From a virus: a DNA stretch of 36,003 nucleotides. The notes beneath the pieces are model-generated. The model searched no databases, was not told where the DNA came from, and saw only the letters and a list, made by a program, of their open reading frames with translations. The DNA is taken from positions 1 to 36,003 of IMG/VR virus record IMGVR_UViG_3300031841_001557; one strand, written 5' to 3'. Both the position numbers and the translations under genes were made by a program. Each line of letters begins with the position of its first letter. Positions within the stretch are counted from its first letter, which is position 1. Shown here piece by piece: positions 2,203 to 35,498 of the stretch.

Positions 2203-2217
2203 CTTTATTTAAAAACA
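2203..2217 (-). promoter_or_regulatory. Late box 1, upstream of terminase operon
   Basis: Minus-strand TGTTTTTAAATAAAG ends 7 bases before the lipoprotein ATG and lies about 25 bases downstream of the terminator at 2242-2268. It is one of seven copies found at the heads of the structural operons and ahead of ninG. A partial palindrome half, ATTCTAAATAAGG, abuts it at 2217-2229. Confidence 0.65.
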
Positions 2218-2241
2218 TTCTAAATAAGGTAATGTGACTAT

Positions 2242-2268
2242 AAAAAAAAAGCCCTCATTCCTGAGAGC
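2242..2268 (-). terminator. Rho-independent terminator
   Basis: On the minus strand a 7-bp stem (GCTCTCA/TGAGGGC, one G-T pair) with GGAA loop is followed by nine Ts. The stop codon of the gene at 2255 lies inside the hairpin. It ends the accessory operon before the terminase operon. Confidence 0.9.
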
Positions 2269-2437
2269 CATTCTTTTGATTCAAGCTAGATAGCTTCTTC
2301 ATTCTTACAAGTCTTACCAGCTCATTAGCTAGATACATCACTTGCTTTTTGTAGACTAGGTCGTCTGGAGACTGTTCTAGCCTATATTTAGCTTCCTCTA
2401 GCTTAGACTTAGTCTGTAGTATTAGTTTGTTCAACAT
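2255..2437 (-). CDS. Hypothetical 60-residue protein
   Basis: This small, Lys/Glu-rich, probably all-helical protein (starts MLNKLILQTKSKLEEAKYRL) has no recognised domain. It overlaps the end of the upstream 63-residue gene by 29 bases and is the last gene before the terminator at 2242-2268. Function unknown. Confidence 0.65.
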   Translation of the reverse strand: MLNKLILQTKSKLEEAKYRLEQSPDDLVYKKQVMYLANELVRLVRMKKLSSLNQKNGSQE

Positions 2438-2600
2438 CTCTTATAGCTTTTAATAGGTTAGTTAAAGCCTCTTGTTTCATTGTTATAGTTCTTAGGCTTG
2501 TCTCTATATACTGGTAGACGTAGTCCTGTAAGTAATCTAGCCTCTCATTTGCTGGGAGTTGTTTGAACTCATCTGTGGTTATAAACTTATCTATATTCAT
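2409..2600 (-). CDS. Hypothetical 63-residue protein
   Basis: Small acidic helical protein. Its ATG at 2600 overlaps the stop codon of the preceding 51-residue gene, indicating translational coupling in the operon that starts at 3373. No recognised domain. Confidence 0.65.
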   Translation of the reverse strand: MNIDKFITTDEFKQLPANERLDYLQDYVYQYIETSLRTITMKQEALTNLLKAIRDVEQTNTTD

Positions 2601-2752
2601 AATACATCTTCTAGTGTTGGGTTAGTGAAATCTACGCAAGCGTCTTGTGGATACTGCTTAAGGATATCCTCAGCCACTCTATCTACTGCCTTGCTCTCTG
2701 TGTTTAGGAGATATCTGTCTCCGTTTACTATCATTACTGTCAACTCGCTCAT
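2597..2752 (-). CDS. Hypothetical 51-residue protein
   Basis: A short frame starting MSELTVMIVNGDRYLLN and ending EDVL. Its ATG overlaps the TGA of the secreted protein upstream (ATGA), and its own TGA overlaps the next ATG in the same way. This seamless coupling on both sides is the main evidence that it is a gene. Function unknown. Confidence 0.65.
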   Translation of the reverse strand: MSELTVMIVNGDRYLLNTESKAVDRVAEDILKQYPQDACVDFTNPTLEDVL

Positions 2753-3225
2753 CTCTTAATCGCTACTGCGTAAATAATCTTAAGGTTAGTGTCCATAGGG
2801 TTACCGTGAGCTACTAGCATATCTTTGTCTTTGTCATATATAAGCGTATGGACGTGCTGTCTGCTTATTACGATAAAGTCATAGTTAGGCATTGCTATAT
2901 ACTTAGCGAACTGTCTAGAAGTAAAGTTATCTACTTTGAAGTGCTGAGCGTTCTTATCTAGACTTAGAGCTAACTGTACTAGCTTCTTAGCATTCATTCC
3001 TTTTTTACTCTCTCTAGTGTACTTAGATGTAAACTCTAGTGCTGTCGAATAGTCTAAGTCATACATAGTAGCTATAGCTCTGATAGCACAGTCGTTATCT
3101 TCATTGAACTTAGCTCTATCTTCTGAATAAGATTTATGGTTATTGAATGTAGTGTGGTGTAGCTTAACCTGAGCTGAGGCGATAAACCCCAGCAGTAACG
3201 TGATAATTAAAAATACTGTTCTCAT
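2749..3225 (-). CDS. Secreted protein, possible papain-like cysteine peptidase
   Basis: The 158-residue protein has a clear signal peptide (hydrophobic 4-16, cleavage after ASA, mature start at Gln19), so it is exported. The mature part has NDCAIRAIA (Cys46), then HVHTLIYD (His124/His126) and HGNPMD (Asn142). This order resembles phage proteins with an NDCVVRAI motif and a distal His, which have a papain-like look. The assignment rests on motif pattern only. It is the second gene of the operon under the promoter at 3401-3431, one base after the preceding stop. Confidence 0.6.
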   Translation of the reverse strand: MRTVFLIITLLLGFIASAQVKLHHTTFNNHKSYSEDRAKFNEDNDCAIRAIATMYDLDYSTALEFTSKYTRESKKGMNAKKLVQLALSLDKNAQHFKVDNFTSRQFAKYIAMPNYDFIVISRQHVHTLIYDKDKDMLVAHGNPMDTNLKIIYAVAIKR

Positions 3226-3226
3226 A

Positions 3227-3373
3227 TTATATAGACATTGAAAATTGAATAGCCTCTGCTGGAGTCATATTGAAGTTGCTGTAAGCTACTATGTAAGCGA
3301 AGTACATATCTGTGTTACTTGGTAAGGTGTCTACTGCTTTTAGGGCTTCTTTGATAAATTGTTGATATTTCAT
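3227..3373 (-). CDS. Hypothetical 48-residue protein
   Basis: First gene of an accessory operon; starts MKYQQFIKEALKAV. The ATG at 3373 lies 27 bases downstream of the -7 element of a good promoter, and one base separates its stop from the next ATG. No domain recognised; soluble and helical in appearance. Confidence 0.7.
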   Translation of the reverse strand: MKYQQFIKEALKAVDTLPSNTDMYFAYIVAYSNFNMTPAEAIQFSMSI

Positions 3374-3400
3374 TTGTGTTTTGCTTTAATTATTATGATA

Positions 3401-3431
3401 CAAATATACATATAAATATTACACAAACAAA
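3401..3431 (-). promoter_or_regulatory. Bacteroidota-type promoter
   Basis: Minus-strand -7 TATATTTG (3401-3408) and -33 TTTG (3428-3431) are 19 bases apart. It drives the operon 3373 to 2255. Palindrome B lies upstream at 3461-3484. Confidence 0.8.
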
Positions 3432-3460
3432 CAAAAACTTACTTTTTTTTACTTTTTTTC

Positions 3461-3484
3461 TTAATTTAGACTGATTCTAAATAA
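3461..3484. repeat. Palindrome B (TTTAGA-N5-TCTAAA)
   Basis: The best-formed copy of the family: TTTAGA 3465-3470, spacer CTGAT, TCTAAA 3476-3481. It overlaps the last codons of the gene ending at 3477 and lies 29 bases upstream of the -33 element of the next promoter. Confidence 0.65.
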
Positions 3485-3863
3485 GCTTAGTCATATTGAT
3501 AGTGTAGCAGAGCTTATCTACATACTCATTATTAGAGAACTCTGTAGTCTTTGGACAGCTTATCTTAACTGGCGGCTTCCTGAGTACATCTCTATCTTTA
3601 CTGATGTTCTTATAGTAGATGCCGCTAGGGTCTTTAACTACATAGACAAAGTCCTTACCCTTCTCTTGAGCTATAATAGTGTTTCTACATATCTTATCGA
3701 ACTCTATAAGCTTCTCGTCGTATACCTTACCTCTGACCTTAAGCTCTATAATAGCCTTATCACTCTCACAATCGTAAGGGCTGTAAGGATTCTCTGCTTC
3801 GTGTATATCTGTCTCTGATAGGAGCATTAGCTCTACCATTAGGTCTCTCTCTGCTTGCTTCAT
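3477..3863 (-). CDS. Hypothetical protein, possible PD-(D/E)XK nuclease
   Basis: The 128-residue protein contains PYD (D31) followed by IIELK (E40, K42) and downstream helices. This matches the D...ExK core of small phage PD-(D/E)XK nucleases such as resolvases. The match is to a short pattern only. It is translationally coupled to the gene upstream (ATGA overlap) in the operon containing the RecE-like exonuclease, which fits a nucleic-acid role. Confidence 0.5.
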   Translation of the reverse strand: MKQAERDLMVELMLLSETDIHEAENPYSPYDCESDKAIIELKVRGKVYDEKLIEFDKICRNTIIAQEKGKDFVYVVKDPSGIYYKNISKDRDVLRKPPVKISCPKTTEFSNNEYVDKLCYTINMTKLI

Positions 3864-4168
3864 AGTATTGCATTTATAGCATCATTCTCATCCCCCTCTG
3901 TCATCTGCATAAACTTAACTTCTGCTTCTGAGGGTTTCTTATCTAATTCAGCTCTCAGTTGGTTAGCTACTCTATTAGCGTCTTTAACTGCGTATCCTAC
4001 TGACTTATAATCCATCTCTAGCTGATTAGTGTAAAAGACTGACTGGAGTAGAGCGTCTGCAACTGCATTAAGCTCTTTATTGTCAGGCTTAGCTTCTAGC
4101 CACTGGGAGACAACCTTGTTGGCTGCCTCCATAGCTGAGTAATATTTAACTGCTTGTAAGTCTTTCAT
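3860..4168 (-). CDS. Hypothetical 102-residue helical protein
   Basis: Predicted mostly alpha-helical with an acidic C-terminus (TEGDENDAINAIL). It sits in a tight operon: its ATG shares a base with the preceding stop, and its own stop overlaps the next ATG. No recognised domain. Confidence 0.65.
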   Translation of the reverse strand: MKDLQAVKYYSAMEAANKVVSQWLEAKPDNKELNAVADALLQSVFYTNQLEMDYKSVGYAVKDANRVANQLRAELDKKPSEAEVKFMQMTEGDENDAINAIL

Positions 4169-4374
4169 TAGTATACGTTTCCTACTCTACAGTTACCTTC
4201 ATACTCCTCCCACTGAGCTAGAGCTACTGTCATAGCAGCACAAGCTTCGTAGTTCTCATCTTCCTCATAGTTCTCTAAGATGTACTCTAGCATTGCTGGC
4301 TCTACACCTTGAGCTAAGCTTATATATGTGCTCTCTAGCACTAACTTGTAAACTGGGTCGTTTTGTAAACTCAT
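4168..4374 (-). CDS. Hypothetical 68-residue acidic protein
   Basis: A short acidic protein (starts MSLQNDPVYKLVLESTY, with an Asp/Glu-rich middle and two closely spaced cysteines near the end) directly downstream of the exonuclease gene, with an ATGA overlap. The acidity and position would suit a modulator or DNA mimic, but there is no direct evidence. Function unknown. Confidence 0.65.
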   Translation of the reverse strand: MSLQNDPVYKLVLESTYISLAQGVEPAMLEYILENYEEDENYEACAAMTVALAQWEEYEGNCRVGNVY

Positions 4375-5180
4375 ATTACTGATTCTTTATGATATTGTGA
4401 TAAATCTATTAACTCGTCTATAAAAAAGGCTTCATACAGTTTGAGGCACGCATCTAGTTTCAACTGACCAGACTCTAGGGTCTCTTGACTAGCTTTGAAG
4501 ATACCTATGTCTGTGGTAGTCTTGTCTACTACTAGCCACCAGAACTCAGGAACGTTATACAGCTGAGTGTATAGATACGCTTGTAGGTCGTAGTCATACT
4601 TCTGTACTGTAAAAGCAAACTGATTCTTTACAGTGCCATCCTTTAAGTCTACATCCTTAACTCCGTCTGCTGTAGTCTTAACATCTGCTACATACTGACC
4701 AGTCTTGTAGATATCTGCCTTAGCTCTTACTGGAATCCCATTGAGAAGCTCTATAGCTGGAACTTCTGTCTCTGCACCTTGTAGGAAGCTTACAGCTCTA
4801 TCGTTCTGTAGAAACGCTGTACTGATTCGGTTGTTCATATACTTCTCTTTGAGCGTAAAAGTGTTAGCTTTACCGAACTCCTCAACAGCTAACTTCCACT
4901 TCTTAGCGTTCTTAGTGGTAACATCACAAAAGTGAAACGTATCGTACTTCTGAGGCTCTAAGATTTGAGCGTGAACAAGTCTGCCATCTCTCAACGCCTG
5001 AGTCTCAGGGTCTGGGTTTCTACGCTTATAGTCAAACCACTTAGGAGACTTTAAAAGCCACTTAAGTGAGCTGTAGCTTAGAGCTTTATCTAACCCTAAG
5101 AACTCGTAATAGAATGAGTCCTCGACCATATTGTCAAGGAGCTCAGTCTTATCGTATTGTATGTGGTCTAATAACTTCAT
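4371..5180 (-). CDS. RecE/exonuclease VIII-like PD-(D/E)XK exonuclease
   Basis: A 269-residue nuclease of the exodeoxyribonuclease VIII-like family, which resects double-stranded ends to feed single-strand annealing. Visible features are the N-terminal LSYSSLKWLLKSPKWF helix (34-49), GRLVHAQIL (H70), RAKADIY (D156), VADVKTT (D166, K168) and the QxxxY motif in YDLQAYLY (197-204). This is the normal order for the fold. Its natural partner is the ERF protein at 10090-10623, encoded 5 kb upstream in the same direction. Confidence 0.85.
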   Translation of the reverse strand: MKLLDHIQYDKTELLDNMVEDSFYYEFLGLDKALSYSSLKWLLKSPKWFDYKRRNPDPETQALRDGRLVHAQILEPQKYDTFHFCDVTTKNAKKWKLAVEEFGKANTFTLKEKYMNNRISTAFLQNDRAVSFLQGAETEVPAIELLNGIPVRAKADIYKTGQYVADVKTTADGVKDVDLKDGTVKNQFAFTVQKYDYDLQAYLYTQLYNVPEFWWLVVDKTTTDIGIFKASQETLESGQLKLDACLKLYEAFFIDELIDLSQYHKESVI

Positions 5181-5181
5181 C

Positions 5182-5298
5182 TTAGAACATTCCGAAGTCT
5201 CCAGATACTCCGTTGATTAAGTTATAGATTAGTGCTAAGATTCCTGACGCTGCAAGAGCGAATAAACCGAAGGCGATTGTGTTTAAAATATATTTCAT
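5182..5298 (-). CDS. Small membrane protein, 38 residues
   Basis: Starts MKYILNTIAFGLF and contains one hydrophobic segment (about 3-27) with a short polar tail. It lies in the gap between the 27-residue frame and the exonuclease gene on the same strand; its stop is one base before the exonuclease ATG. Probably an inner-membrane peptide; function unknown. Confidence 0.6.
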   Translation of the reverse strand: MKYILNTIAFGLFALAASGILALIYNLINGVSGDFGMF

Positions 5299-5308
5299 TG
5301 TTTTAGTA

Positions 5309-5392
5309 TTAAAGGGTTTCATTAATTGATTCGTAATCGAACTGTCCGTAATGGTTCTCGATGTTTACTAGTGTGTTGAAGTATGTGTTCAT
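5309..5392 (-). CDS. Tiny hypothetical protein, 27 residues
   Basis: First frame after the promoter at 5419-5449; starts MNTYFNTLVNIENHYG and ends before an A/T-rich gap of 10 bases to the membrane peptide. Support is only its position and the promoter-to-ATG distance of 26 bases. It could instead be a leader. Confidence 0.45.
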   Translation of the reverse strand: MNTYFNTLVNIENHYGQFDYESINETL

Positions 5393-5418
5393 TTTTATTT
5401 TGTTTTATAATTACAGTA

Positions 5419-5449
5419 CAAATATAAGCATAGTTTTTAAACTACCAAA
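5419..5449 (-). promoter_or_regulatory. Bacteroidota-type promoter
   Basis: Minus strand -7 TATATTTG (5419-5426), 19-base spacer, -33 TTTG (5446-5449, within TTTGGTAG). It drives the exonuclease operon. Palindrome C is 9 bases upstream. Confidence 0.85.
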
Positions 5450-5458
5450 CTTTTACTG

Positions 5459-5481
5459 TTATTTATATTGATTCTAAATAA
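5459..5481. repeat. Palindrome C (TTATTTA...TAAATAA)
   Basis: Same family and half-sites as the palindromes at 247, 3461 and 28658. It lies between the terminator at 5481-5503 and the promoter at 5419-5449, so it touches the promoter's upstream side. Confidence 0.65.
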
Positions 5482-5503
5482 GAAACCCCTCCGTTAAGAG
5501 GGG
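5481..5503 (-). terminator. Rho-independent terminator
   Basis: Minus-strand CCCCTC/GAGGGG stem (5486-5491 with 5498-5503), six-base loop, then TTTCTT. It lies 7 bases after the stop of the diphosphohydrolase gene. Confidence 0.85.
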
Positions 5504-5510
5504 AATCTAA

Positions 5511-5933
5511 TTACTGGGGGTTTTTCTCTAGGTACTTTTGTAATAGAGCTAGAGCTCTCCAAGCGACCTTCCCAGCGTGTAGGATACCATCGTCATCCAT
5601 AGGGTCTACTGAGTGGTCTATCAAGTGCCTAACTAGAGCGTCTGGCTCGTCCTGAGACTTAGACCTATCCCAGTGGAGTGGCTTGTTAGGATTGTGCTGG
5701 TCATTGCCAACCTTACTAACATAGCCTATGTACTTAATTGCGTCAGGAAAGTAAGATAGAACTCCAGAGAAAACTGGCTGAGCTTTACGCTTTGCGTGTT
5801 TACTTAACACTTCCTCAGCTTCTACTTCTATCTCGTTGACCTCTACTTTACCGTGCCACTGACTGAGCTCGTTGTAATACTCTGCAACCTCGTCAATGGT
5901 CTTGTCTGGGTAGTTATGACACTTATCACACAT
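5511..5933 (-). CDS. dATP/dGTP diphosphohydrolase-family protein
   Basis: The 140-residue protein contains the block FSGVLSYFPDAIKYIGYVSK, then GNDQHNPNKPLHWDRSKS and DDGILHAGKVAWRALALLQKY. I recognise this as the phage dATP/dGTP diphosphohydrolase (MazG/MazZ-related) family, which hydrolyses purine dNTPs. It begins with MCDKCHNYPDK. I chose ATG 5933, one base after the lipoprotein stop; a longer frame from TTG 5978 would overlap that gene by 44 bases. No PurZ-like partner is in the window, so a role in base modification is not indicated; pool adjustment is more likely. Confidence 0.8.
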   Translation of the reverse strand: MCDKCHNYPDKTIDEVAEYYNELSQWHGKVEVNEIEVEAEEVLSKHAKRKAQPVFSGVLSYFPDAIKYIGYVSKVGNDQHNPNKPLHWDRSKSQDEPDALVRHLIDHSVDPMDDDGILHAGKVAWRALALLQKYLEKNPQ

Positions 5934-5934
5934 A

Positions 5935-6441
5935 TTACAGGTAGTCAAATTTAACTGCCTCGAACATAACTCCGTCAATGTACTTAACGTTACCTAGGTC
6001 ACAGTTAGTACCTAATTCTTCAATGATAGTAAGCTCATCGTTAGACATAGTATCACATCCTACTGCAGCGTTAGACAAATCTGGATTGTTTTGGATATTA
6101 CCCTCTACACAAATAACTCCGTTACCTCTTGTAGATACAGTTCCACCTCCATTAAGGTTTCCAGTAACAACTAAAGTAACATTCTTAAGGGTCAACTTGT
6201 TACCGTTAAGGTTAACGTCACCAGTAGAATAGATGACTCCGTCAGTAGCGTCAGATGGAGTAAGTTTAACGTCTCCAGTCATACCACCTAAGTCGACAGT
6301 AGACTCTCCTGAGAAGCTAAAGAAGCTAGCGTACTGAACATCCACTCTTTTATAGGTGACTAACCCATCTTCACATCGTACATCCTTCTCGCAAGATGTA
6401 ACTAAAATTAAAACTAAAAGTGTTGATAAAAATAATCTCAT
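5935..6441 (-). CDS. Phage-encoded lipoprotein, beta-helix-like
   Basis: A 168-residue protein with a lipoprotein signal (hydrophobic 3-14, LVTSC with Cys17). The mature region is rich in short repeats such as GDVKL, GDVNLNG and GNLNGGG, typical of parallel beta-helices. It should be anchored in the host envelope. Its place in a non-structural operon under a host-type promoter makes it a candidate for superinfection exclusion or surface masking (inference). It starts 19 bases after the phosphoesterase stop. Confidence 0.7.
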   Translation of the reverse strand: MRLFLSTLLVLILVTSCEKDVRCEDGLVTYKRVDVQYASFFSFSGESTVDLGGMTGDVKLTPSDATDGVIYSTGDVNLNGNKLTLKNVTLVVTGNLNGGGTVSTRGNGVICVEGNIQNNPDLSNAAVGCDTMSNDELTIIEELGTNCDLGNVKYIDGVMFEAVKFDYL

Positions 6442-6460
6442 TGTATATTGAATTTAAAAA

Positions 6461-7174
6461 TTAAAGAACCATTAACTCGTTGATAGCTGTACGACCTCCA
6501 ATGATAACTGCACAACCGATAGCTGGCTTCTTACCAGCCTTAGCGTAAGCCATAGCGTAAGCTTCGTGGTCAATACCACAACCTACTTGAGTAGCAAAGA
6601 TACGACTGTTACGTCCTACAGTGTACTCAGTATAAGCTTGAGTGTGTAGGTGACCTTGTACAACTGACTGTAAGTCATTCTTAGCCTTTGTGCGAGCAGT
6701 ACCGCCTTCTCCGTGTACATATAGCACTCCATCAATCTCTAGTTCGTTAACGAAGTTCCATTTAGGAGTCTCTAGTACTTCCTTGTACGACTTTATCCAC
6801 TTGCTAGGAACAGCAGAAGTCTGAGCTTTACGCATAATGATTCTATCGTGGTTACCGATAAGAACGTCAGCTACTGGGAATGCGTGATTCCAGCGTCTGA
6901 GTCTTTCGATAGCTAGCTCTAGTTCCTCTGCTCCGCCCATACCGTTAGCATCAGTCTCGTGGTAAGAGCTGTAGTGGTTATCAATTACATCACCGATAAA
7001 AACTACTCTATTGCAGTTATAACGCTGATAAACCTCAACACAGTGGTCAAAGTATGATTCTAAGTCGAATGGAGCGTGTAAGTCACCAATAACTAGAACT
7101 CTGCTCTCTTTTTGATTGAAGAACTCGAAGTTAATCTTGCGAGCTCCGTGTAAACGTGGTCTTATTTCTGACAT
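6461..7174 (-). CDS. Calcineurin-like metallophosphoesterase
   Basis: The 237-residue protein has the full set of metallophosphoesterase motifs: GDLH (30-33), GDVIDN (61-66), GNHD (107-110), VHG (H154) and GHLH (174-177). The substrate is unknown; phage members often act on nucleic acid or nucleotide phosphates. It is the first gene after the promoter at 7195-7225, followed by the lipoprotein and dNTP diphosphohydrolase, so the operon mixes nucleotide and envelope functions. Confidence 0.9.
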   Translation of the reverse strand: MSEIRPRLHGARKINFEFFNQKESRVLVIGDLHAPFDLESYFDHCVEVYQRYNCNRVVFIGDVIDNHYSSYHETDANGMGGAEELELAIERLRRWNHAFPVADVLIGNHDRIIMRKAQTSAVPSKWIKSYKEVLETPKWNFVNELEIDGVLYVHGEGGTARTKAKNDLQSVVQGHLHTQAYTEYTVGRNSRIFATQVGCGIDHEAYAMAYAKAGKKPAIGCAVIIGGRTAINELMVL

Positions 7175-7194
7175 ATATTATAAATTAAGTGAGG

Positions 7195-7225
7195 CAAACA
7201 TACGACAAATAAATGACATATGCAA
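7195..7225 (-). promoter_or_regulatory. Probable promoter, degenerate -33
   Basis: Minus-strand -7 TATGTTTG (7195-7202) with a 19-base spacer to TTGC (7222-7225, within CTTGCA) instead of TTTG. The same CTTGCA variant appears in the ERF promoter at 10644-10674, so the two may share a strength or regulator. Confidence 0.65.
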
Positions 7226-7242
7226 GCCCCACGTGAAAAAAA

Positions 7243-7464
7243 TTAATTGTACTTAAACTTTTTGTTAGATTTCAGAGCCTCCTTTTCCTCAATAATCTGA
7301 GCTATGTGATATAACTCTAAGGCAACTCTTTTGTACTTCTCAGGCTCTGTCTCATTCTTACCAGTCGAATGTAACCACTGTAGCTTTGTGGCAAACTGGT
7401 CAGCAATCTTATTGAGCTCTGTTAAGCTTAGCTTCTTTAACTTCTTAGTCGTTAGCTGCTTCAT
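7243..7464 (-). CDS. Hypothetical 73-residue basic protein
   Basis: Lys-rich helical protein (starts MKQLTTKKLKKLSLTELNKI) overlapping the end of the HTH-like gene upstream by 20 bases. It is the last gene of the replication operon. No recognised domain. Confidence 0.65.
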   Translation of the reverse strand: MKQLTTKKLKKLSLTELNKIADQFATKLQWLHSTGKNETEPEKYKRVALELYHIAQIIEEKEALKSNKKFKYN

Positions 7465-7909
7465 AGATACGCTTAAGTTCTCTAACTACGCTAGCTACAC
7501 AAGGAGAGCAATTAGACACAACTCTCTTAGCGTTGAAGATATCATTATAAATTCTAACCAACTCTTTTTGCTCCTTAGACGAAACTGAGTGTCTCTTTTC
7601 AGCAAAGTACTTATCTAGGTAGTTATAGTCATCCTCAGACAAGTCATTGAGCTTTCTGTTAGGGAACAATTTGTTGAGCGTCTCTTTGCGAGCTTTACAG
7701 CCACAGTCAGAGTCTAGAGCCTTAGCTACAGTTTCTACCACAGCTTTGATTCCAGTAGCCTCTGTGATTTTCTCTACAGTGTCACCTAGACCTTTGTTAG
7801 CAGCGTCTCCTAGGATATCTAGAACAACTGCTTTTTTAATCTTGAGCTTCTGAGCTATCTTACCAGCTGTGAGCCCCTCATCGTGTAATTCAAATACTCT
7901 TTCGTTCAT
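7445..7909 (-). CDS. HTH-containing protein with GLGDTVEKITEATGIK motif
   Basis: The first ~36 residues look like a helix-turn-helix (DEGLTAGKIAQKLKI). Residues ~40-85 carry GLGDTVEKITEATGIK and DCGCKARKETLNKLFPN, a block I associate with proteins of many Bacteroidota phages whose role is not established. The C-terminal part has a CSPC pair. It may be a small DNA-binding regulator. It follows the sigma factor and the 47-residue basic protein in the same operon. Confidence 0.6.
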   Translation of the reverse strand: MNERVFELHDEGLTAGKIAQKLKIKKAVVLDILGDAANKGLGDTVEKITEATGIKAVVETVAKALDSDCGCKARKETLNKLFPNRKLNDLSEDDYNYLDKYFAEKRHSVSSKEQKELVRIYNDIFNAKRVVSNCSPCVASVVRELKRIYEAAND

Positions 7910-7911
7910 AA

Positions 7912-8055
7912 TTATCTATTTTTACCTTGCCCTCTGGACTTTTGTTTATACTTAGTCTGACCTTTACTAGCGTTCTTAGAATGAACACCTTTTCTTCTGA
8001 CTCTAGCTTTTTCAGTTCTAGCTTCGTAGAGTCCTCCTTTTTTCTTTTTAGCCAT
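7912..8055 (-). CDS. Small very basic protein, 47 residues
   Basis: Starts MAKKKKGGLYEARTEKARVR and is Lys/Arg-rich throughout, so it probably binds nucleic acid. The ATG overlaps the end of the sigma factor gene by 8 bases, and its stop is 2 bases from the next ATG. Similar tiny basic proteins starting MAKKKKGG occur in other Bacteroidota phages (recollection, not searched). Confidence 0.65.
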   Translation of the reverse strand: MAKKKKGGLYEARTEKARVRRKGVHSKNASKGQTKYKQKSRGQGKNR

Positions 8056-8623
8056 TATATTCTCCTTTAGTGAATTTTAAATAATCGTTATACAAATGCT
8101 CTGCAATGATGAGCTTACTCTTTTTAATTGATAGGTAGATAGTCTGGATACCTAGACCACTTTCCTCAGCTAGCACTCTGAATGACTTACCAGTCTTTAA
8201 GTACTTCCTGAATAGTTCGTAGTCAAACCAGTCATCTGACTCAGACTTCAGCACCTCATACATCTTAGTCTCTAGAGACTCTATAGCTTCTATCTTAGGG
8301 TCTATACCTTCATCTAGCAACTCAAAGCAGTAGTCCATATCGTACTGGTCACCTACGTGATTGTACTTAGGCTCTTTAACCTTCTTTAAGTCGTTGAATA
8401 TAATAGAACGAAGTGCGAAAAACATATAGCCTTTGCTAGCCTTCTCTCCTTCTACTATCTTGTCATATAGGTCATCATACTTAAGTAGCTTGATGTACGC
8501 TTCCTGAACATAATCCTCAGCGTAGTTTCTGACCTTGAAGTTGTTACCAGCTAAACTTCTGGCAGCGTCAACAAAGTCAGCGTGGTGCACTGATAGCAAC
8601 TCTATAGCTCTATTCTTCGACAT
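8048..8623 (-). CDS. Sigma-70-family (ECF-like) RNA polymerase sigma factor
   Basis: The 191-residue protein has a region-2 type segment, YAEDYVQEAYIKLLKY (34-49), and SKGYMFFALRSIIFNDLKK (63-81). It also has a region-4 helix-turn-helix, SFRVLAEESGLGIQTIYLSIKKSK (147-170). This is the ECF-sigma layout. It lies in the replication operon and could redirect host RNA polymerase to late promoters; the seven boxes ahead of the structural operons and ninG are natural candidate targets (inference). Confidence 0.8.
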   Translation of the reverse strand: MSKNRAIELLSVHHADFVDAARSLAGNNFKVRNYAEDYVQEAYIKLLKYDDLYDKIVEGEKASKGYMFFALRSIIFNDLKKVKEPKYNHVGDQYDMDYCFELLDEGIDPKIEAIESLETKMYEVLKSESDDWFDYELFRKYLKTGKSFRVLAEESGLGIQTIYLSIKKSKLIIAEHLYNDYLKFTKGEYNG

Positions 8624-11200: not shown

Positions 11201-11232
11201 CAAACATACGAAAATAAAATGAAACTACCAAA
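11201..11232 (-). promoter_or_regulatory. Bacteroidota-type promoter
   Basis: Minus-strand -7 TATGTTTG (11201-11208), 20-base spacer, -33 TTTG (11229-11232, within TTTGGTAG). The -33 element directly abuts the ninG stop codon. Confidence 0.8.
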
Positions 11233-11634
11233 TTAAAATGACTGTTTCTTTTTTATCTCGTCAAGTTTATCCTTATATATGTCTATAAGGTACTGTAAGT
11301 GTACAGCGTCAAATTTAGCCACCTTGTGAGACTTTTGCATTAGTTCGTCAGCTTTATCCTGACCTAAGGCTTGACCGTACTCATACTGTCTGCCATTAAG
11401 GAATCTGTTGCAATATCTATGCTGAAAGTGGACGTTCTCCTCATCCCATCTAGTTGAGAGATGTCTGCGACCTACGAAGTGACCAGCGTCACCTTCTGAG
11501 TAGTGGGTTTCTTTACCGCAATCTATACACTTACCGAAGCCAGTGTGGTTATCTACGTCACGTCTACGAATATACTCACTGAATATCTTATCCAGTTTAG
11601 CCTTTAACGTCTTTATTTTTACTTTACGTGCCAT
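11233..11634 (-). CDS. ninG: NinG/Rap-like recombination endonuclease
   Basis: A 133-residue protein of the lambda NinG (Rap) family, structure-specific nucleases acting on recombination intermediates. Visible features are the basic N-terminus MARKVKIKTLKAKL, Zn-binding CIDCGK (C36, C39), GHFVGRRHLSTRWDEENVHFQ and HRYCNRFLNG (C75). I chose ATG 11634 over the TTG two codons upstream. A strong terminator ends only 4 bases upstream of this ATG, so expression probably depends on read-through or a very short transcript. Confidence 0.88.
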   Translation of the reverse strand: MARKVKIKTLKAKLDKIFSEYIRRRDVDNHTGFGKCIDCGKETHYSEGDAGHFVGRRHLSTRWDEENVHFQHRYCNRFLNGRQYEYGQALGQDKADELMQKSHKVAKFDAVHLQYLIDIYKDKLDEIKKKQSF

Positions 11635-11638: not shown

Positions 11639-11678
11639 AAAAAAGCCCAGCCGATAAAACCCCCTAACTCGACTGGGC
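11639..11678 (-). terminator. Strong terminator or attenuator just upstream of ninG
   Basis: Minus strand 10-bp stem GCCCAGTCGA/TCGGCTGGGC (one G-T pair; 11669-11678 with 11645-11654), 14-base loop containing GGGGG, then six Ts. It lies between late box 2 and ninG, which is an attenuator geometry. Confidence 0.85.
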
Positions 11679-11700
11679 ATAAAAAAAAGTTACATAGGGT

Positions 11701-11715
11701 CTTTATTTAAAAACA
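11701..11715 (-). promoter_or_regulatory. Late box 2
   Basis: Minus-strand TGTTTTTAAATAAAG, identical over 15 bases to boxes 1, 3, 4 and 5. Unlike most of the others it is 66 bases from the next start codon (ninG), with a terminator in between. The palindrome TGACA-TAT-TGTCA lies 14 bases upstream. Confidence 0.6.
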
Positions 11716-11729
11716 AGAAAAAATGGCAG

Positions 11730-11742
11730 TGACATATTGTCA
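11730..11742. promoter_or_regulatory. 13-base palindrome TGACATATTGTCA
   Basis: Inverted repeat TGACA-TAT-TGTCA. A near-identical one, TGACAAATTGTCA, lies upstream of late box 4 at 19466-19478. Probable operator shared by two box-containing leaders (inference). Confidence 0.5.
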
Positions 11743-11752
11743 GGCAATAAAT

Positions 11753-17255: not shown

Positions 17256-17270
17256 CTTTATTTAAAAACA
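17256..17270 (-). promoter_or_regulatory. Late box 3, upstream of portal/lysis operon
   Basis: Minus-strand TGTTTTTAAATAAAG ends 6 bases before ATG 17249 and lies 37 bases after the terminator at 17307-17332. Upstream CTTATCTAAAT resembles the sequence before box 1. Confidence 0.65.
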
Positions 17271-17306
17271 ATTTAGATAAGAGTTTGTTTTGTTAAAATT
17301 AGTGCA

Positions 17307-19410: not shown

Positions 19411-19425
19411 CTTTATTTAAAAACA
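19411..19425 (-). promoter_or_regulatory. Late box 4, upstream of capsid operon
   Basis: Minus-strand TGTTTTTAAATAAAG 25 bases before the ATG of the Glu-rich gene. The leader upstream holds three palindromes between 19449 and 19500. Confidence 0.65.
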
Positions 19426-24392: not shown

Positions 24393-24407
24393 CTTTATTT
24401 AAAAACA
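24393..24407 (-). promoter_or_regulatory. Late box 5, upstream of head maturation operon
   Basis: Minus-strand TGTTTTTAAATAAAG ends 7 bases before ATG 24385. It fits exactly into the short gap after the tape measure stop at 24413. Confidence 0.65.
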
Positions 24408-26844: not shown

Positions 26845-26859
26845 ATTTATTTAAAAACA
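26845..26859 (-). promoter_or_regulatory. Late box 6, upstream of tape measure operon
   Basis: Minus-strand TGTTTTTAAATAAAT, differing from the consensus only at the last base, 4 bases before ATG 26840. Confidence 0.6.
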
Positions 26860-28699: not shown

Positions 28700-28730
28700 T
28701 TTGGTGGCTTTTCTTTTTTGTGTATATTTG
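28700..28730 (+). promoter_or_regulatory. Bacteroidota-type promoter
   Basis: TTTG (28700-28703), 19-base spacer, TATATTTG (28723-28730). The -7 element and following leader through the start codon are identical to those of the leftmost minus-strand gene. Confidence 0.85.
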
Positions 28731-28740
28731 TACTATCAAA

Positions 28741-28926: not shown

Positions 28927-28930
28927 AAAA

Positions 28931-29401: not shown

Positions 29402-29889
29402 GAATAGCCTTACTACTAATCACTATGACAGTCTCAGCTCAAGGCTGGGACGGAACTCACGTGTACTTTCCGCAATACACTAAACACTTTAACTCGAATC
29501 CTTTATATGCTAGCGAGCAGTTAGGCTCTGAGGGAGGTTCTAAAGGCTTCTTACTTACTAGGAGTGGTAACGGTGCTCACTTTACTCTTGGCTTTATGCA
29601 AAACAGCTACGGAGATTTCAGTCACTATTTGACAGCTGGATTCAATCTCAATGAGACTAAAAAGAGCCAACTATCTCTGCACTTTGGTTTTGCAGATAAC
29701 TACAGCAAAGTCTACTGGGATAGAAAAACCTCTGACCTACTCTATAAGTACTTACCTAGACAGATGGCTGACAACTCTATAGTGCCTATTATGACGCTAG
29801 TGTATAAGTTTAAAATAACTAAAAGGATAGGAGTACATACAAACATCAGTCCTATCTTTGTCAATACTGGTATATTTGTGCAGATTTAA
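29398..29889 (+). CDS. Predicted outer-membrane beta-barrel protein
   Basis: 163 residues with a short signal peptide (MRIALLLITMTVSAQG, cleavage after SA). Alternating amphipathic strands with aromatic girdles follow (GFLLTRSGNGAHFTLGFMQN; YLTAGFNLNETKKSQLSLHF), ending in an aromatic/hydrophobic strand, GIFVQI. This is the make-up of small 8-strand barrels. A phage-encoded barrel under a host-type promoter suggests receptor masking or envelope change, like moron genes in lambdoid phages (inference). Confidence 0.65.
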   Translation: MRIALLLITMTVSAQGWDGTHVYFPQYTKHFNSNPLYASEQLGSEGGSKGFLLTRSGNGAHFTLGFMQNSYGDFSHYLTAGFNLNETKKSQLSLHFGFADNYSKVYWDRKTSDLLYKYLPRQMADNSIVPIMTLVYKFKITKRIGVHTNISPIFVNTGIFVQI

Positions 29890-29936
29890 GACTTCTGTCC
29901 AGCGTATGTAGTCACTATGGTTACTTTAGTTGGCAT
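29886..29936 (-). CDS. Possible 16-residue peptide after tail gene
   Basis: The frame MPTKVTIVTTYAGQKS begins on the last base of the upstream stop codon (TAATG) and ends overlapping the convergent plus-strand gene. Coupling is the only support; it may be chance. Confidence 0.25.
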   Translation of the reverse strand: MPTKVTIVTTYAGQKS

Positions 29937-32149
29937 TACAGTTCTTCTAGTATTTCAACGAATAAACCTCCTACTGACGTATCTGTAGCGTTGTTAGCTA
30001 GAGTCACGTTATCTAAGTGTCCAGTAGTAGGGTCTAAGATAACAAAGTAGTCAGTGCTTCCAGTAGTGTTCTGAACAGTCTGAGTTTCGAACATATCGGT
30101 GTCAGCCTCTGTGATTAGCACTAGCTCTAGTTTACTCTCTCCAGTCAGATAGTTAGTCTCAATAGACTCTATAAGGTGAGTGTTGTTATGTATAATGAGC
30201 TTGTCATTAGGTTCTATATCCTTAACCAATCTCAAAGGTAGAAACGCCGTGTAAGACGCTCTACGCTTGTTTTCGTCAAACGTGAGTGCTATTGTGTTTC
30301 TCCAAAGTAAGTTGTATAGACCTAAGTCTTGGTAATTGTCATCACCTATCTCACTTAGCTCAGAGCCAAAATAGCTCCCTATGACTCCGTTAGTTGGACT
30401 TACTATGTTCTGAGTGTAAGTAAGCTGAGGCATCCAGAATGTACTTTTGCTAGAGACACTAGAGCCGATGTCGTAAGCTACGGAAGTTCCAGCAGTACGT
30501 CTTTTTAGGTATGTGAATATAGGTTTGCATATCTGCTCAGTCCCATCTTTGTCAGTTAGCAGCATAATGTTTAGACCTGAGAATAAAGCGTTGCTTAGGT
30601 TAGTCAGCTGTTCTATAGGCATTATGTGAGACTTCAAGTCCACAGTGTAGATACTTCCGTCTATAACGTTACCGTCAGACTCAGGGAGGTATTTAAGCTC
30701 TCCGAATTTTCTAGCATTAACTTTAGAGAATGCGTGCTCTAAGATAGTTTTCTTCTCAGCTCCAGTAAATTTGACACCTGAGTAGTAGTTAGGTCTATTG
30801 ATGTTGTAGCTAGATATATCTACATACTCGGAGATATTGTACTCATTCCCCTGATTGACGTAGTGGTCGTAGTGGTAAGTGTTTATAGTCAAGTCATCTT
30901 CAACCTGAGCCACTATATTGAACCTCTTAAACATATCCGCCAAGAAGTCGGACACTTTCATCTCTGGTAAGTTTGGAGACACGCTATACGTTCCAGTACC
31001 TCCAGCTACAGCAGACACTGAGCCCGACATACCATAACTAGCTCCACCGCCAAAGAAGTCACTATAACCCCAAGTGAGGTTGACGTTGATAGTAGCTGTC
31101 TGAGCTGTAGATACCTCGAAAGTAAAAACATCTCCAGTGTTCATAGCTCCGTAGTTATGTGTTCCAGTAGTTGTAGCAGTGTGAACTATACTACCGTTCT
31201 TTTTTACGTGAAAATCAAAGCTGGTAGCTGTGGTAGATATATTATAGCTCAAGTTACCATTTGAGTTAGGTGGATTGTCATTAGCTAAAAAACCTATAGT
31301 TACACTAGAGCCAGACGTTAACTTAAATTCACTGGTAGACGGAGTTGAACCAGTCCAAGCTAAGTTAGAAAATCCGTATGTAGATGCGGAAGTACCCCCT
31401 TCTATTGTAGTCTGGTCAGTCTTTTGCAAAACTAGGTGTAAGTCCTCAACGTAGTCAGCTCTCATAGCTCCCTCAATAGTTATACCGTACTTAGTCTCCA
31501 TAGCGTCTAGAATCTCCTTAACTCTAAGAGCTCCCATCATATCATTGTCAACTAGACCGTAATAACCTTGTTCTCTAGTGGTAGTGGAGTAAGCTATATT
31601 TTTGGTCTTACTCAACCCTTCTGTCTTGGCAAAGTCATAGTCAGAAGTGTGAGCTATATAGCGTCCATCTCTACAGATTAAAGGGAATTTAATAGCGTCA
31701 GAAGCAACTTGGCTAGAGAATAAGCTAGAAAAGTTAGGGCTAGAGATATCTAGGGAGCTAAAATCTAAGTCAGTAAGCTCATCCTGACCTATAAGCTTGT
31801 TAAGTTCGGTTAGCTTACCATAAAAGCGTATTTTATAGGCGTAAGGCTTACCGTCTTTGAACTGAGTACCCTCAACTGATACGTTACCACTCTTAAAATC
31901 AACTCCATTCAGTTTCAACACTGCTGGAATCAGAACTCTAGCGTCTACAGCGTTTGTATCAACTCTATAGACGTGTTTAAAGAGCTTATTATTCTTTTTT
32001 GATGTCGGTATACTAAAAGTCTTAGAGAAGTCAGTAAAGAGCTTCTTAACGTCCTTAAACGACTTAACTGATTTCTTAATAGTGACACTCTCATCACTAA
32101 ATTGGTCTACTTCGACCCCATTTATGTATATCTCTAGAGGGTACTTCAT
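29936..32149 (-). CDS. Tail tip/baseplate protein, 737 residues
   Basis: Begins YPLEIYINGVEVDQFSDESV and contains FSKTFSIPTSKKNNKLF (about 42-58), a start I recognise from large tail proteins of Bacteroidota phages. The middle contains a Gly/Ser/Thr beta domain (about 240-390). The C-terminal third (IEPNDKLIIHNNTHLIESIE; TGESKLELVLI) resembles tail hub or distal tail domains. It is the last large gene of the tail operon and is coupled to the upstream gene by a one-base stop/start overlap. Confidence 0.7.
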   Translation of the reverse strand: MKYPLEIYINGVEVDQFSDESVTIKKSVKSFKDVKKLFTDFSKTFSIPTSKKNNKLFKHVYRVDTNAVDARVLIPAVLKLNGVDFKSGNVSVEGTQFKDGKPYAYKIRFYGKLTELNKLIGQDELTDLDFSSLDISSPNFSSLFSSQVASDAIKFPLICRDGRYIAHTSDYDFAKTEGLSKTKNIAYSTTTREQGYYGLVDNDMMGALRVKEILDAMETKYGITIEGAMRADYVEDLHLVLQKTDQTTIEGGTSASTYGFSNLAWTGSTPSTSEFKLTSGSSVTIGFLANDNPPNSNGNLSYNISTTATSFDFHVKKNGSIVHTATTTGTHNYGAMNTGDVFTFEVSTAQTATINVNLTWGYSDFFGGGASYGMSGSVSAVAGGTGTYSVSPNLPEMKVSDFLADMFKRFNIVAQVEDDLTINTYHYDHYVNQGNEYNISEYVDISSYNINRPNYYSGVKFTGAEKKTILEHAFSKVNARKFGELKYLPESDGNVIDGSIYTVDLKSHIMPIEQLTNLSNALFSGLNIMLLTDKDGTEQICKPIFTYLKRRTAGTSVAYDIGSSVSSKSTFWMPQLTYTQNIVSPTNGVIGSYFGSELSEIGDDNYQDLGLYNLLWRNTIALTFDENKRRASYTAFLPLRLVKDIEPNDKLIIHNNTHLIESIETNYLTGESKLELVLITEADTDMFETQTVQNTTGSTDYFVILDPTTGHLDNVTLANNATDTSVGGLFVEILEEL

Positions 32150-33720
32150 TATCTTATATTGTTAATAAGTGAGTGTGATTCTTTTACTGATACTGTGAAC
32201 TGAACTAAGCCATTGTTAGCGTGAGTTTTCTTTTGTAAGCTATTTGTAGTTACATTTACTGGCTTAACAGTACCTTTATGCTCCATCCATACTTCCTCAG
32301 ACACGATAAGCTGCCTAAAGACCTCAGAATAGCTCTCGTGTAGGTAGTCAGTGTTCAAAGTATGACGAACTGTCGCATTTTTGTTAAAATCCCTGACAGA
32401 ATGGCTGCCATAGTTGTTAGATAGGTTGTCATAGTCAAAGTTGATGCTATTGTAGCTGCTACCTTTACCAGTCATAGACTCAGTAGTCTTAGCTGAGAAG
32501 TGAATATCTTGTAAAGCTCCAAATTTGTTAACGAAAGTTAACCTTACATTCTCATACTTATTACACGGTAGTGTCTCAACAGATATAACCTCGACTTTAC
32601 CATCAGACTTAATAATGTGAGCCTCGTCTATGTCTAGCTCAGAAACATACTCCATAATCTCATCAGAGCAGTTCTCATCTATGATAGTACCTCCGTCTTT
32701 CATAACTCTAGCGTAGAATGTAGATGCAGACTGTCCAGCAGATGTAGCGTAGTTTATAGCTCCAGATGAGTTGGAGTCACTGATGTTATACTCAGTTGCT
32801 ATGCCTCCAGCCTCAAGCTGAGCGTGAACAATATCTATGCTTCCGCTGTGTGTGTAAATTGCTAAACTAGAACTTGATGTAGTTTCAACCGTTATAGAGC
32901 ATAGATACCAGCCATCCCCATAGTTTTTCATCGTGCCACTTGCTCCTGAAGATTCTGACGTTATAGTTCCATTATTTAAGTTGAAGTCTACGTTCTTATT
33001 GACTGGTGAGCCAAATCTCAATCTAAACAAGCCAGAAGTGTTTGCTTTAACAAGAGTTGAGCCAGTCAAAGTGCCAGTATCGCTTACTGACTGATAGATA
33101 CCTAAGAATGATGCACTAGACTCTGTAATAGTCCACACTGATTTACCTAGATATGAGTATGCAGCCTCAGATACTGAGTCACCGTTTAGAGTCCATCTAT
33201 CAAAGTCCTCACTGTCATCTAGCAAGTTCTTATCAGCTAACTCAGAGATAAACTTAACCTCTCCGTCCTTGTAAAATACAGCCATATCAGCGTCTTTTGT
33301 AGGGATGACCGCTGTAGTGTCCTCAGGAACTGAGATGTAGTCATTTGACATCAATACTTCGTCTGATTTAAGGCTATTGTCTGACTTACTCCAGTATTGT
33401 ACGAAGTCCTCATCAATATAACCATCTGTAGCTAGGTATTTACCACTTACACCATTTCCAGCACCGTCTACCATATAGATATACACCCATACAGCCTCTG
33501 TAACGTAGTCTCCGTTAAATGATTGGTCTACGTAGTCTCTAATGAGCTCAGACACCTCAAATGTAGCTTTGCCTTCACTATTGTGAGCCTTTGTTAGAGT
33601 GTATTGTGCAGAAGTGGGCACGTCAGCAGAGTTACCGTTCCAAACGTATAGAGATACGGTAGCTGTAGAGCCACTTGTTGACTGGATAAAAAATGGTGAG
33701 CGTGAATATATTAAACTCAT
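32149..33720 (-). CDS. Tail protein with inserted carbohydrate-binding-like module
   Basis: 523 residues. The N-terminal ~160 and C-terminal ~200 residues look like one conserved tail protein (MSLIYSRSPFFIQ; WMEHKGTVKPVNVTTNSLQK). Residues ~164-320 are an insertion resembling the 87-272 module of the 438-residue protein (DDSEDFDRWT, YGDGWYLCSITVETTSSSSL, QLEAGGIATEYN). The insertion probably provides glycan binding at the tail tip. ATGA overlap with the upstream gene. Confidence 0.65.
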   Translation of the reverse strand: MSLIYSRSPFFIQSTSGSTATVSLYVWNGNSADVPTSAQYTLTKAHNSEGKATFEVSELIRDYVDQSFNGDYVTEAVWVYIYMVDGAGNGVSGKYLATDGYIDEDFVQYWSKSDNSLKSDEVLMSNDYISVPEDTTAVIPTKDADMAVFYKDGEVKFISELADKNLLDDSEDFDRWTLNGDSVSEAAYSYLGKSVWTITESSASFLGIYQSVSDTGTLTGSTLVKANTSGLFRLRFGSPVNKNVDFNLNNGTITSESSGASGTMKNYGDGWYLCSITVETTSSSSLAIYTHSGSIDIVHAQLEAGGIATEYNISDSNSSGAINYATSAGQSASTFYARVMKDGGTIIDENCSDEIMEYVSELDIDEAHIIKSDGKVEVISVETLPCNKYENVRLTFVNKFGALQDIHFSAKTTESMTGKGSSYNSINFDYDNLSNNYGSHSVRDFNKNATVRHTLNTDYLHESYSEVFRQLIVSEEVWMEHKGTVKPVNVTTNSLQKKTHANNGLVQFTVSVKESHSLINNIR

Positions 33721-34283
33721 TGTTTTTTCTTTAAATGTTTGACTATTTGATTACCTATATTGTGTGCTATATCCATCGCTATAGCTTCGTGATATTGTTT
33801 AAGCATAGGTTGATATCTACGCATAAAGGGTTTACTGAAAAATAACGTTTTTGTTATACCTTTTTTATGTACTGACTTAGCTACAGCGTAAGGATTCAAC
33901 CCTCGCTTCTCAGCCCAGTTCTTAATAGCTTTGATAGGTAGGGCTTTCTTAGACTTACGGAAGTTTCCTTGTCTACCGAAAATAGAGTTACCAGACTTAG
34001 CCTTGTGTCTACCGTCTACTGGGTCAGTACCCTTAACACCTTGGTCTTGAAATACTCCGTACTCATTGAGTTGGAAGTTAAGAGAAGGCATAGAAGAACC
34101 TCCTAAGAACTTACCAGAGACTGAGCGATTAAACTTCTTAGAGATGTATCCCTTGATAGAGTTATGCAGAGCTCCCTTAGCACCTTGTCTAGTAAGATTG
34201 CTCTTAGCTTGAGAAACTACATACTTCTTATAGCTCTCTAGTACTTTCGTGGCTCTAGGATATGTCGAAGTAATTTTTAGCAC
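33717..34283 (-). CDS. HK97 gp10-like tail completion protein
   Basis: A 188-residue basic protein with NEYGVFQDQGVKGTD (about 73-87) and FSKPFMRRYQPMLKQYH near the end. The EYG.F...G..G pattern is that of minor tail/head closure proteins. The start is GTG 34283 within the overlap with the upstream gene (7 bases); no suitable ATG exists. Position after the tail terminator-like gene supports the role. Confidence 0.65.
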   Translation of the reverse strand: MLKITSTYPRATKVLESYKKYVVSQAKSNLTRQGAKGALHNSIKGYISKKFNRSVSGKFLGGSSMPSLNFQLNEYGVFQDQGVKGTDPVDGRHKAKSGNSIFGRQGNFRKSKKALPIKAIKNWAEKRGLNPYAVAKSVHKKGITKTLFFSKPFMRRYQPMLKQYHEAIAMDIAHNIGNQIVKHLKKKQ

Positions 34284-34723
34284 AAGTCAACGTTGTTTTG
34301 AATAGTTACTGTTAAGTCCAAGCCAACACCAGCTAGCTTATCTTCAAATCTGTCTGAAAAGAACTCTATCTCTGCATCTTCCTCCACTTGATAGCCTTGC
34401 TCATATAAGTTACCTCTCTTGAGCTCCTGAGTAGTCTTGGTGGCAGCTGCTAGCATACTGTTAAGTCTATACATCTCAGAGTCGTTAAATTCAGCCTGAT
34501 TGTCATCAGATACGTCTACGATATCTAAGAATAGAATAGACACCTCAATGTCGCTTGTAGAGTCTCCTATAGTCCCAGTAGAGATACCAACGTGAGCAAG
34601 TGGATAGATGTCTTGTTTAAGTAGCTCAACCTCGTCAATGTTACCGAATGTAACCGAGTTGATGAGCTTGTTGTTAGTAAGCTCGTCTTTGATAGCGTTT
34701 GTTAAGTTTAGTAGTGACTTCAT
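34277..34723 (-). CDS. Tail terminator-like protein
   Basis: A 148-residue acidic protein (SLLNLTNAIKDELTNNKLIN; IYPLAHVGISTGTIGDSTSD) between the chaperone and gp10-like genes. Mixed alpha/beta with the look of tail completion/terminator proteins, but assigned mainly by position. Its ATG shares one base with the stop of the frameshifted chaperone (TAATG). Confidence 0.55.
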   Translation of the reverse strand: MKSLLNLTNAIKDELTNNKLINSVTFGNIDEVELLKQDIYPLAHVGISTGTIGDSTSDIEVSILFLDIVDVSDDNQAEFNDSEMYRLNSMLAAATKTTQELKRGNLYEQGYQVEEDAEIEFFSDRFEDKLAGVGLDLTVTIQNNVDLC

Positions 34724-35477
34724 TATCTTCTGTTTCTTTTCATTATTTTGTTCTCAGTGTCTGACTTATCCTTCTCAAATGATAACCACGTCAGAGCATC
34801 ATATATGTTTATTTTAGTACTTTTTCTAAAGTTTGTCGCATCACCTCCGCTAAGCGAGTGTAGTGCTCCGAACCATCCCCATCTTTGGCTAAACTGTCCT
34901 TCAAGTGAGAGGTCAACGAGTCCTTCTCCCTCATCTTTTTGCTGAGCTTCTCCAAATAGATAGCTGAATGTACTAGTAAGTGACTGCTTAAACGGTAAAA
35001 AAAAAGCGTTGCATTTACAAACTGACTAGCTGGTAGAGACTTCATTACCTGATGGTCATCCTTAGAGCCTCTGTAAGGCTCGATATTGTACATCTGACCC
35101 ACTTTGTCTTTTACTGGTCTAAATAGAACAGCAGCTGCTTTATGCCACTCTGCTGGCTTAACTAGATATTCTTCTAGGTCGATATACTCTCCTAGAGTTA
35201 ATTCTTCTAGGTCAGGAATGAATCCGTAAGTAGTGCCGTTAAATTCAAAGGTATACTCTAGCGGAGGCATCTCATCCATAGCGTCAGTAATATCCTTCAC
35301 TAATTCCTCAGCCTGAGCTTGTGGGATAGAGCGTACTTCACTCATAGGGATGTCTAAAAAGATGTTAAGAGTCTTGTGTCCTACAAACTCTTTATCGTCA
35401 TCGTCAGCAATCATTGTATACTTCTGATACTGCTCTAGCGTTATCCCAGCTCCATTAAGAGGTATTTTAGCTACCAT
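34723..35477 (-). CDS. Frameshifted tail assembly chaperone (gpGT-like), 251 residues
   Basis: Ribosomes slipping -1 on the T9 run at 34997-35005 (frame-0 codons CTT TTT TTT TAC) would leave frame 0 after residue 160 and continue 91 codons in the -1 frame. They would stop at 34723-34725, exactly at the next ATG. The -1 extension reads LPFKQSLTSTFSYLFG, then QRWGWFGALHSLSGGD, then IYDALTWLSFEKDK. This is protein-like and resembles tail-chaperone extensions of Bacteroidota phages. Total 251 residues. Confidence 0.7.
34809..35477 (-). CDS. Tail assembly chaperone, unshifted form (gpG-like), 222 residues
   Basis: Starts MVAKIPLNGAGITLEQYQKY; the middle has FIPDLEELTLGEYIDLEEYL and ASQFVNATLFFYRLSSHLLV. 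The last 62 residues, after the slippery run, overlap the -1 extension in another frame and end TLEKVLK. Chaperones of this type coat the tape measure before tube polymerisation. First gene of the tail operon, 6 bases downstream of late box 7. Confidence 0.75.
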   Translation of the reverse strand: MVAKIPLNGAGITLEQYQKYTMIADDDDKEFVGHKTLNIFLDIPMSEVRSIPQAQAEELVKDITDAMDEMPPLEYTFEFNGTTYGFIPDLEELTLGEYIDLEEYLVKPAEWHKAAAVLFRPVKDKVGQMYNIEPYRGSKDDHQVMKSLPASQFVNATLFFYRLSSHLLVHSAIYLEKLSKKMREKDSLTSHLKDSLAKDGDGSEHYTRLAEVMRQTLEKVLK

Positions 35478-35483
35478 TAAATA

Positions 35484-35498
35484 GTTTCTTTAAAAACA
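35484..35498 (-). promoter_or_regulatory. Late box 7, upstream of tail operon
   Basis: Minus-strand TGTTTTTAAAGAAAC, the most divergent copy (two changes), 6 bases before ATG 35477 and 22 bases after the terminator at 35521-35543. Confidence 0.6.

Follow-up and report, generated by a model that had tools for sequence, protein, structure and literature searches.

The late genes of this phage are, with a probability of roughly 0.8, transcribed from promoters whose -10 regions are copies of a 15-base box, TGTTTTTAAATAAAG, which would be read by an ECF-type sigma factor of the phage's own and give late mRNAs with short leaders. Late promoters for a phage sigma had been proposed in an initial annotation of this DNA. 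The proposal was strengthened by a -35 element at fixed spacing, the placement of the boxes at operon starts, their strand bias, the sigma factor of the relatives, a changed -10 region alongside a diverged sigma, and a fixed distance to the ATG in sister lineages. The window, i.e. the whole stretch of DNA analysed, is a virus record of 36,003 bases from a tailed phage, the hosts of which appear to be marine flavobacteria. The box was found in seven copies on the minus strand, five exact, one with one mismatch and one with two mismatches, all at the positions given previously (Table 1). The exact sequence was present five times on the minus strand and absent from the plus strand of the window and from a reversed-sequence control. 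With up to three mismatches allowed there were 14 matches in the window, compared with 3.0 expected by shuffling (maximum 9). Three segments can be distinguished in the box: TGTT, a T tract and AAATAAAG.

Table 1. Putative promoters, hairpins and genes discussed in the text, with their positions in the window.
Feature	Position	Strand	Remarks
Box with two mismatches (TGTTTTTAAAGAAAC), putative -10 region of tail-operon promoter	35484..35498	-	gene 35477 starts 6 nt on
Terminator-like hairpin just upstream of tail-operon box	about 35544-35526		
Box with one mismatch, putative promoter of tape-measure unit	26845..26859	-	ORF start 4 nt on
Exact box, putative promoter of XkdF-like protease/head-maturation unit	24393..24407	-	gene 24385, 7 nt on
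Exact box, putative promoter of scaffold-like/capsid unit	19411..19425	-	gene 19385, 25 nt on
AAAACAAA, putative -35 element of portal-unit promoter	17284..17291	-	13 nt before box; one of the 12 cases with this spacing
Exact box, putative promoter of portal-to-lysis unit	17256..17270	-	gene 17249, 6 nt on
Terminator-like hairpin upstream of portal-unit box	about 17334-17315		
Exact box, putative ninG promoter	11701..11715	-	start codon 66 nt on
Conserved hairpin of ninG leader: GCCCAGTCGA, loop with GGGGGUUUU, UCGGCUGGGC, then U-run	11645..11678	-	
ninG	11233..11634	-	start codon 11634; NinG family matches
Host-type TTTG-N20-TAnnTTTG promoter of sigma-holding early/middle operon	11201..11234 (approximate)	-	-7 element begins at 11208
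ECF-type sigma factor, proposed reader of the box	8048..8623	-	PHROG sigma family, predicted fold; ECF model matches in relatives
Terminator-like hairpin just upstream of terminase-unit box	2269-2250		
Exact box, putative promoter of unit with large terminase as last gene	2203..2217	-	gene 2195, 7 nt on

Each late unit opened with a box, while none of the 20 unit-internal genes had one, so that the boxes do precede the structural operons and ninG as had been claimed. The distances of 4-7 nt to the start codon in five cases were also confirmed, and terminator-like hairpins were located directly before the three copies at 2203, 17256 and 35484. The box at 26845 does head the tape-measure unit, but the first gene there is an ORF of 44 amino acids (26840-26706) that overlaps the beginning of the tape-measure gene, not the tape-measure gene itself. 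A box was present at the equivalent site in the relatives L026, L032 and L033. The capsid gene was recognised through a PHROG match. The first gene of the terminase unit (1767-2195, minus strand) encodes a lipoprotein-like product with a HELAH metalloprotease-like motif and had no Pfam or PHROG match. A tRNA gene is located at 35860-35933 (minus strand), close to the end of the record.

Relatives were collected using the capsid and sigma proteins as queries and, after removal of near-identical contexts, contained 133 non-redundant box sites. Boxes as frequent in coding DNA as elsewhere would have refuted the proposal, but they were much rarer there: 12 of the 133 lay within ORFs, whereas 110 were predicted from ORF coverage. 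They were nearly always on the coding strand, and in sigma-bearing contigs 71 boxes were on the strand of the sigma gene and one on the opposite strand, the reversed control giving 5 for both strands together. In the profile of the 133 sites, positions 0-13 (TGTTTTTAAATAAA) carried about 2 bits each and the last base was mostly G or C. Outside the box the information fell off immediately; what remained was an A-rich stretch at -16 to -14 and a preference for A/T at -5 to -2. The distances from box to ATG fell mainly into two groups of 3-10 and 14-26 nt and were never below 3 nt. Chance repetition in AT-rich DNA, to which the base composition and weak three-mismatch matches elsewhere in the window might point, has next to no probability, as the counts far exceed those in the shuffles and the reversed control and the copies are strand-specific, intergenic and conserved at equivalent operons. 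The co-occurrence of box and sigma gene could be checked in few contigs (8/23 in one set), most being fragments, and absences from fragmentary contigs were excluded from the evidence. An exact-box scan of viral contigs mixed family members with single chance matches and was not used for rates. Megablast of window positions 1-25000 against cultured phages gave no match.

Exact AAAACAAA within 50 nt upstream of a box was found in 13 cases in the relatives and the window together, and in 12 of these it ended exactly 13 nt before the box. In the window itself it was present at one of the seven copies only. The A-rich stretch upstream of the boxes is the trace of a discrete element. The spacing rule supports a two-part promoter of the ECF type, of which the box would be the -10 half, made up of TGTT and the region that melts. 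ECF promoters of the SigW/SigX/SigM type have the geometry AAAAC-N16/17-YGTT. The corresponding arrangement was AAAAC-N16-TGTT in the lineage of the window and AAAAC-N17-CGTT in P12024L, with an exact -35 element in a minority of the boxes. The invariant core of 14 bases far exceeds an ordinary ECF -10 region, and part of it may therefore serve the start region, translation or a second protein. Sites of such length and near-invariance are indeed commoner for specific DNA-binding proteins than for the -10 of a sigma, and an HTH protein (7445-7909), encoded beside the region of the sigma gene, could be an activator that binds the box and recruits the host primary holoenzyme. This is unlikely, because no TAnnTTTG is present at a usable distance after the box, the gap between box and ATG is too short for a downstream host promoter, and AAAACAAA, an element also present in lineages whose -10 is different, lies upstream at a -35-like spacing.

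The identification of the phage gene product as an ECF-like sigma factor was upheld by a match to a phage sigma family and by the presence of regions 2 and 4 of sigma factors. Members of the ECF class (group 4) possess only these two regions, have about 160-200 residues and lack region 3. The protein from the window has 191 amino acids, modelled as two helical domains with a linker between them, and its matches span residues 1-186 of ECF sigmas. The sigma70-ECF model TIGR02937 matched all 29 of 29 aligned relatives (E 5.8e-9 to 0.01); the protein from the window scored 17.2 bits against a curated cut-off of 42.9 and had no Pfam match. Its predicted structure consisted of two good domains with an uncertain linker (mean pLDDT 80.8), and how the domains are placed relative to each other is uncertain as well (pTM 0.42). 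The best fold matches of this model were ECF sigmas, and its C-terminal domain fitted region 4 of E. coli sigmaE on -35 DNA with 2.4 A over 69 residues. A sequence search of the PDB with the sigma profile returned weak sigma matches among influenza haemagglutinin coiled coils, the latter being judged chance. Relatives of the sigma were sought in one genome per bacterial species, and none were found there.

Host-type promoters were searched as TAnnTTTG with TTG 19-20 nt upstream. The pattern was found before early genes on both strands, at +27151, +27352, +28723, -11208, -10651, -7202, -5426, -3408 and -193, and two of these (-11208, -10651) are located upstream of the sigma gene. Two further occurrences on the plus strand (+10868, +11776) face minus-strand genes. 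The claim that host-type promoters are absent from the late operons applied to the starts of the late units, all of which were without TAnnTTTG as expected of promoters not read by the host primary sigma, but one occurrence (-23024) was found inside a late gene. Host-type promoters at early genes and boxes at late units form the layout of an early-to-late switch. In the preferred reading, the flavobacterial host polymerase would transcribe the early genes, including the sigma gene, from TTTG/TAnnTTTG promoters. The sigma would then bring the host core polymerase to AAAAC(AAA)-N16-TGTTTTTAAATAAAG promoters of the terminase, portal/lysis, capsid, protease, tape-measure, tail and ninG units, which would be expressed late. 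Where AAAACAAA is present it would be recognised by region 4, and TGTT by region 2, which would also open the AT-rich stretch.

Among cultured phages, Nonlabens phage P12024L (JQ823123) was the closest relative found; it has a similar kind of genome and a capsid protein of 35% identity. Its sigma homologue is diverged (about 22% identical), and the TGTTTTTAAATAAAG box was not found in its genome. Like the phage of the window it has AAAACAAA before the structural operons, but the -10 region is CGTTAATA directly before the ATG, so that these operons open with AAAACAAA-N14/15-CGTTAATA-ATG. The arrangement occurred six times on the plus strand, compared with 0.15 expected by shuffling, and in the logo of 17 sites from this lineage, numbered from the ATG, AAAACAAA occupied -34 to -27 and CGTTA occupied -12 to -8. 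A third lineage, whose capsid is about 62% identical to that of the window, had a modal distance of 25 nt from AAAACAAA to the ATG and a weaker -10. In lineages II and III AAAACAAA ended at a fixed 25-26 nt before the ATG. In third-lineage contigs including L348 and L294, with AAAACAAA 25 nt before the ATG, the weak -10 was not uniform across contigs, suggesting that more sigma/promoter variants may exist. Sigma homologues or ECF-model matches were present in all three lineages, and it appears that a diverged ECF-type sigma goes with an altered -10 while AAAACAAA is kept. Flavobacteria have several ECF sigmas of their own, and in Flavobacterium psychrophilum a motif whose -10 box has a conserved CGT has been attributed to such sigmas (PMC9723704), so that a host ECF sigma induced by infection, or else a different polymerase, might read the boxes. 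Both are highly improbable: the phage family retains an ECF-type sigma gene, the -10 differs between lineages with different sigmas, and no gene for a single-subunit RNA polymerase was noticed among those proteins of the window that were examined. In Cellulophaga phage phi46:1, a distant temperate relative with about 25% identity to a third-lineage capsid, no sigma could be detected and both the box and the AAAACAAA-ATG arrangement were absent; this phage constitutes a single, distant negative case.

In the sister lineages the G of CGTT lies 11 nt before the ATG, and the fixed distance from promoter to ATG would be required if the ATG is the 5' end; their late mRNAs look truly leaderless. By analogy, RNA in the window would begin around box position 12-13, within the final AAAG, give or take 2-3 nt. 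The five close copies would then have leaders of about 6-11 nt, and leaders of about 28 nt for the capsid unit and about 70 nt for ninG are predicted. The earlier statement that transcripts begin at or next to the AUG is largely supported as far as near-leaderless mRNAs are concerned, but the predicted start was shifted by comparison with the sisters. In F. psychrophilum leaderless mRNAs account for just 5.5% (PMC9723704), and flavobacterial start regions (F. johnsoniae) are enriched in A at -14 to -11 (PMC6847099). In copies located 6 nt before the ATG, AAATAAA spans -14 to -8, and a secondary role of this segment in translation is therefore possible. That the box as a whole is a translation-initiation enhancer, with its A-rich 3' half where flavobacterial ribosomes favour A, would also fit the five boxes close to an ATG. 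It is nevertheless quite improbable in view of the ninG and capsid boxes at 66 and 25 nt, the lack of boxes at operon-internal genes, and the T5 tract, which equals the A tract in invariance; nor would a translation signal explain AAAACAAA at a fixed distance upstream. A function as a Shine-Dalgarno site was rejected, as the box is not purine-rich in the right sense.

In principle, phage sigmas with a dedicated late box are known: T4 gp55 and those of phiEco32 and Salmonella phage 7-11. In T4, as proposed here, a promoter-recognition subunit of the phage acts on a -10-like box that is very strictly conserved among the many late units, but the late promoters of T4 lack a -35 element and depend on the sliding clamp, and gp55 has no equivalent of region 4 (PMC2988020). 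The present promoters differ from the T4 type, since AAAACAAA stands at fixed spacing at part of the sites and the sigma has a region-4-like domain. The parts of the phiEco32/7-11 report considered here (PMC4331800) describe a phage sigma distant from the sigmaA family, host promoters for early genes, a phage motif that recurs before structural gene clusters, and motifs that are similar but shifted between related phages, all of which has a counterpart in the reading given here. The motif of these enterobacterial phages is TAATGTATA instead of AAAACAAA as -35 plus the 15-base -10 box, and the same parts do not mention any set spacing between motif and start codon, unlike the situation here. 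Bacterial ECF promoters (SigW/SigX/SigM; flavobacterial SM6 motif, PMC9723704) share the AAC-type -35, the spacer of 16-17 nt and the YGTT/CGT-type -10, but the present promoters have a long invariant extension, TTTAAATAAA, are targeted to phage late genes and adjoin the start codon. In the open literature the box string occurred only in a Plasmodium paper, and no description of this promoter system was found for late promoters of flavophages. The promoter class, its two-part form, the divergence alongside the sigma, the start-codon coupling and the ninG leader were not found described in that literature and appear to be new.

At even odds, a whole clade of flavobacterial phages conducts late transcription through a co-diverging pair of ECF sigma and promoter, with the -10 against the start codon and (near-)leaderless late mRNAs, ninG being excepted by a regulatory, structured leader RNA. 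A promoter code and a dedicated sigma can be proposed for a large uncultured group of marine flavobacterial phages with the cultured relatives Nonlabens P12024L/S. The co-diverging natural pairs would give insight into the choice of -10 by ECF sigmas and could provide orthogonal parts for the genetics of Bacteroidota. If leaderless late mRNAs occur class-wide, they would be a natural system for leaderless initiation by ribosomes that work without Shine-Dalgarno pairing, and would contrast with the hosts' own mRNAs, most of which have leaders.

In the relatives, the ninG box was followed by a hairpin and then by the ninG ATG, with no nearby gene start. The closest relatives of the window had a stem of 9-12 bp with a U-run, while in other relatives an internal loop on the 5' side separated an outer from an inner stem. 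GGGUUU was kept in the apical loop of all 20 of 20 aligned sequences. Each of the eight inner pairs occurred as 3-6 pair types, and 159 of 160 cells paired, compared with a mean of 86 in column shuffles, although this count leans towards structure, as the arms were chosen by folding. Automatic alignment had misplaced the arms, and pairs were therefore counted on fold-derived arms. A structured leader (11645-11700, minus strand, in the window) was also seen in L051, L054, L055, L068, L075, L083, L250, L255, L257, L277 and L282. A search of Rfam 15 gave no matching family, the matches being weak and far below gathering; a candidate 'ninG' RNA motif has reportedly been published. The hairpin may control ninG or form the end of a short RNA, and because of the U-run after the stem it may also be a terminator or attenuator. 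In close relatives of the window, ACCC(U) at the 5' end of the leader could pair with the GGGG loop of the hairpin in a pseudoknot-like manner (11700-11635, minus strand). An ATG 5 nt past the ninG box forms a start-stop pair, ATG-TAA (11695-11690, minus strand), which is probably due to chance, since in close relatives it is replaced by TTTG-TAA or missing. Upstream of the ninG box (about 11717-11745, minus strand; L001, L009, L038), a TGACAnnnTGTCA-like inverted repeat or a TTTTTGACATATGCAAGTTA stretch is conserved in close relatives and is possibly an extra operator or promoter.
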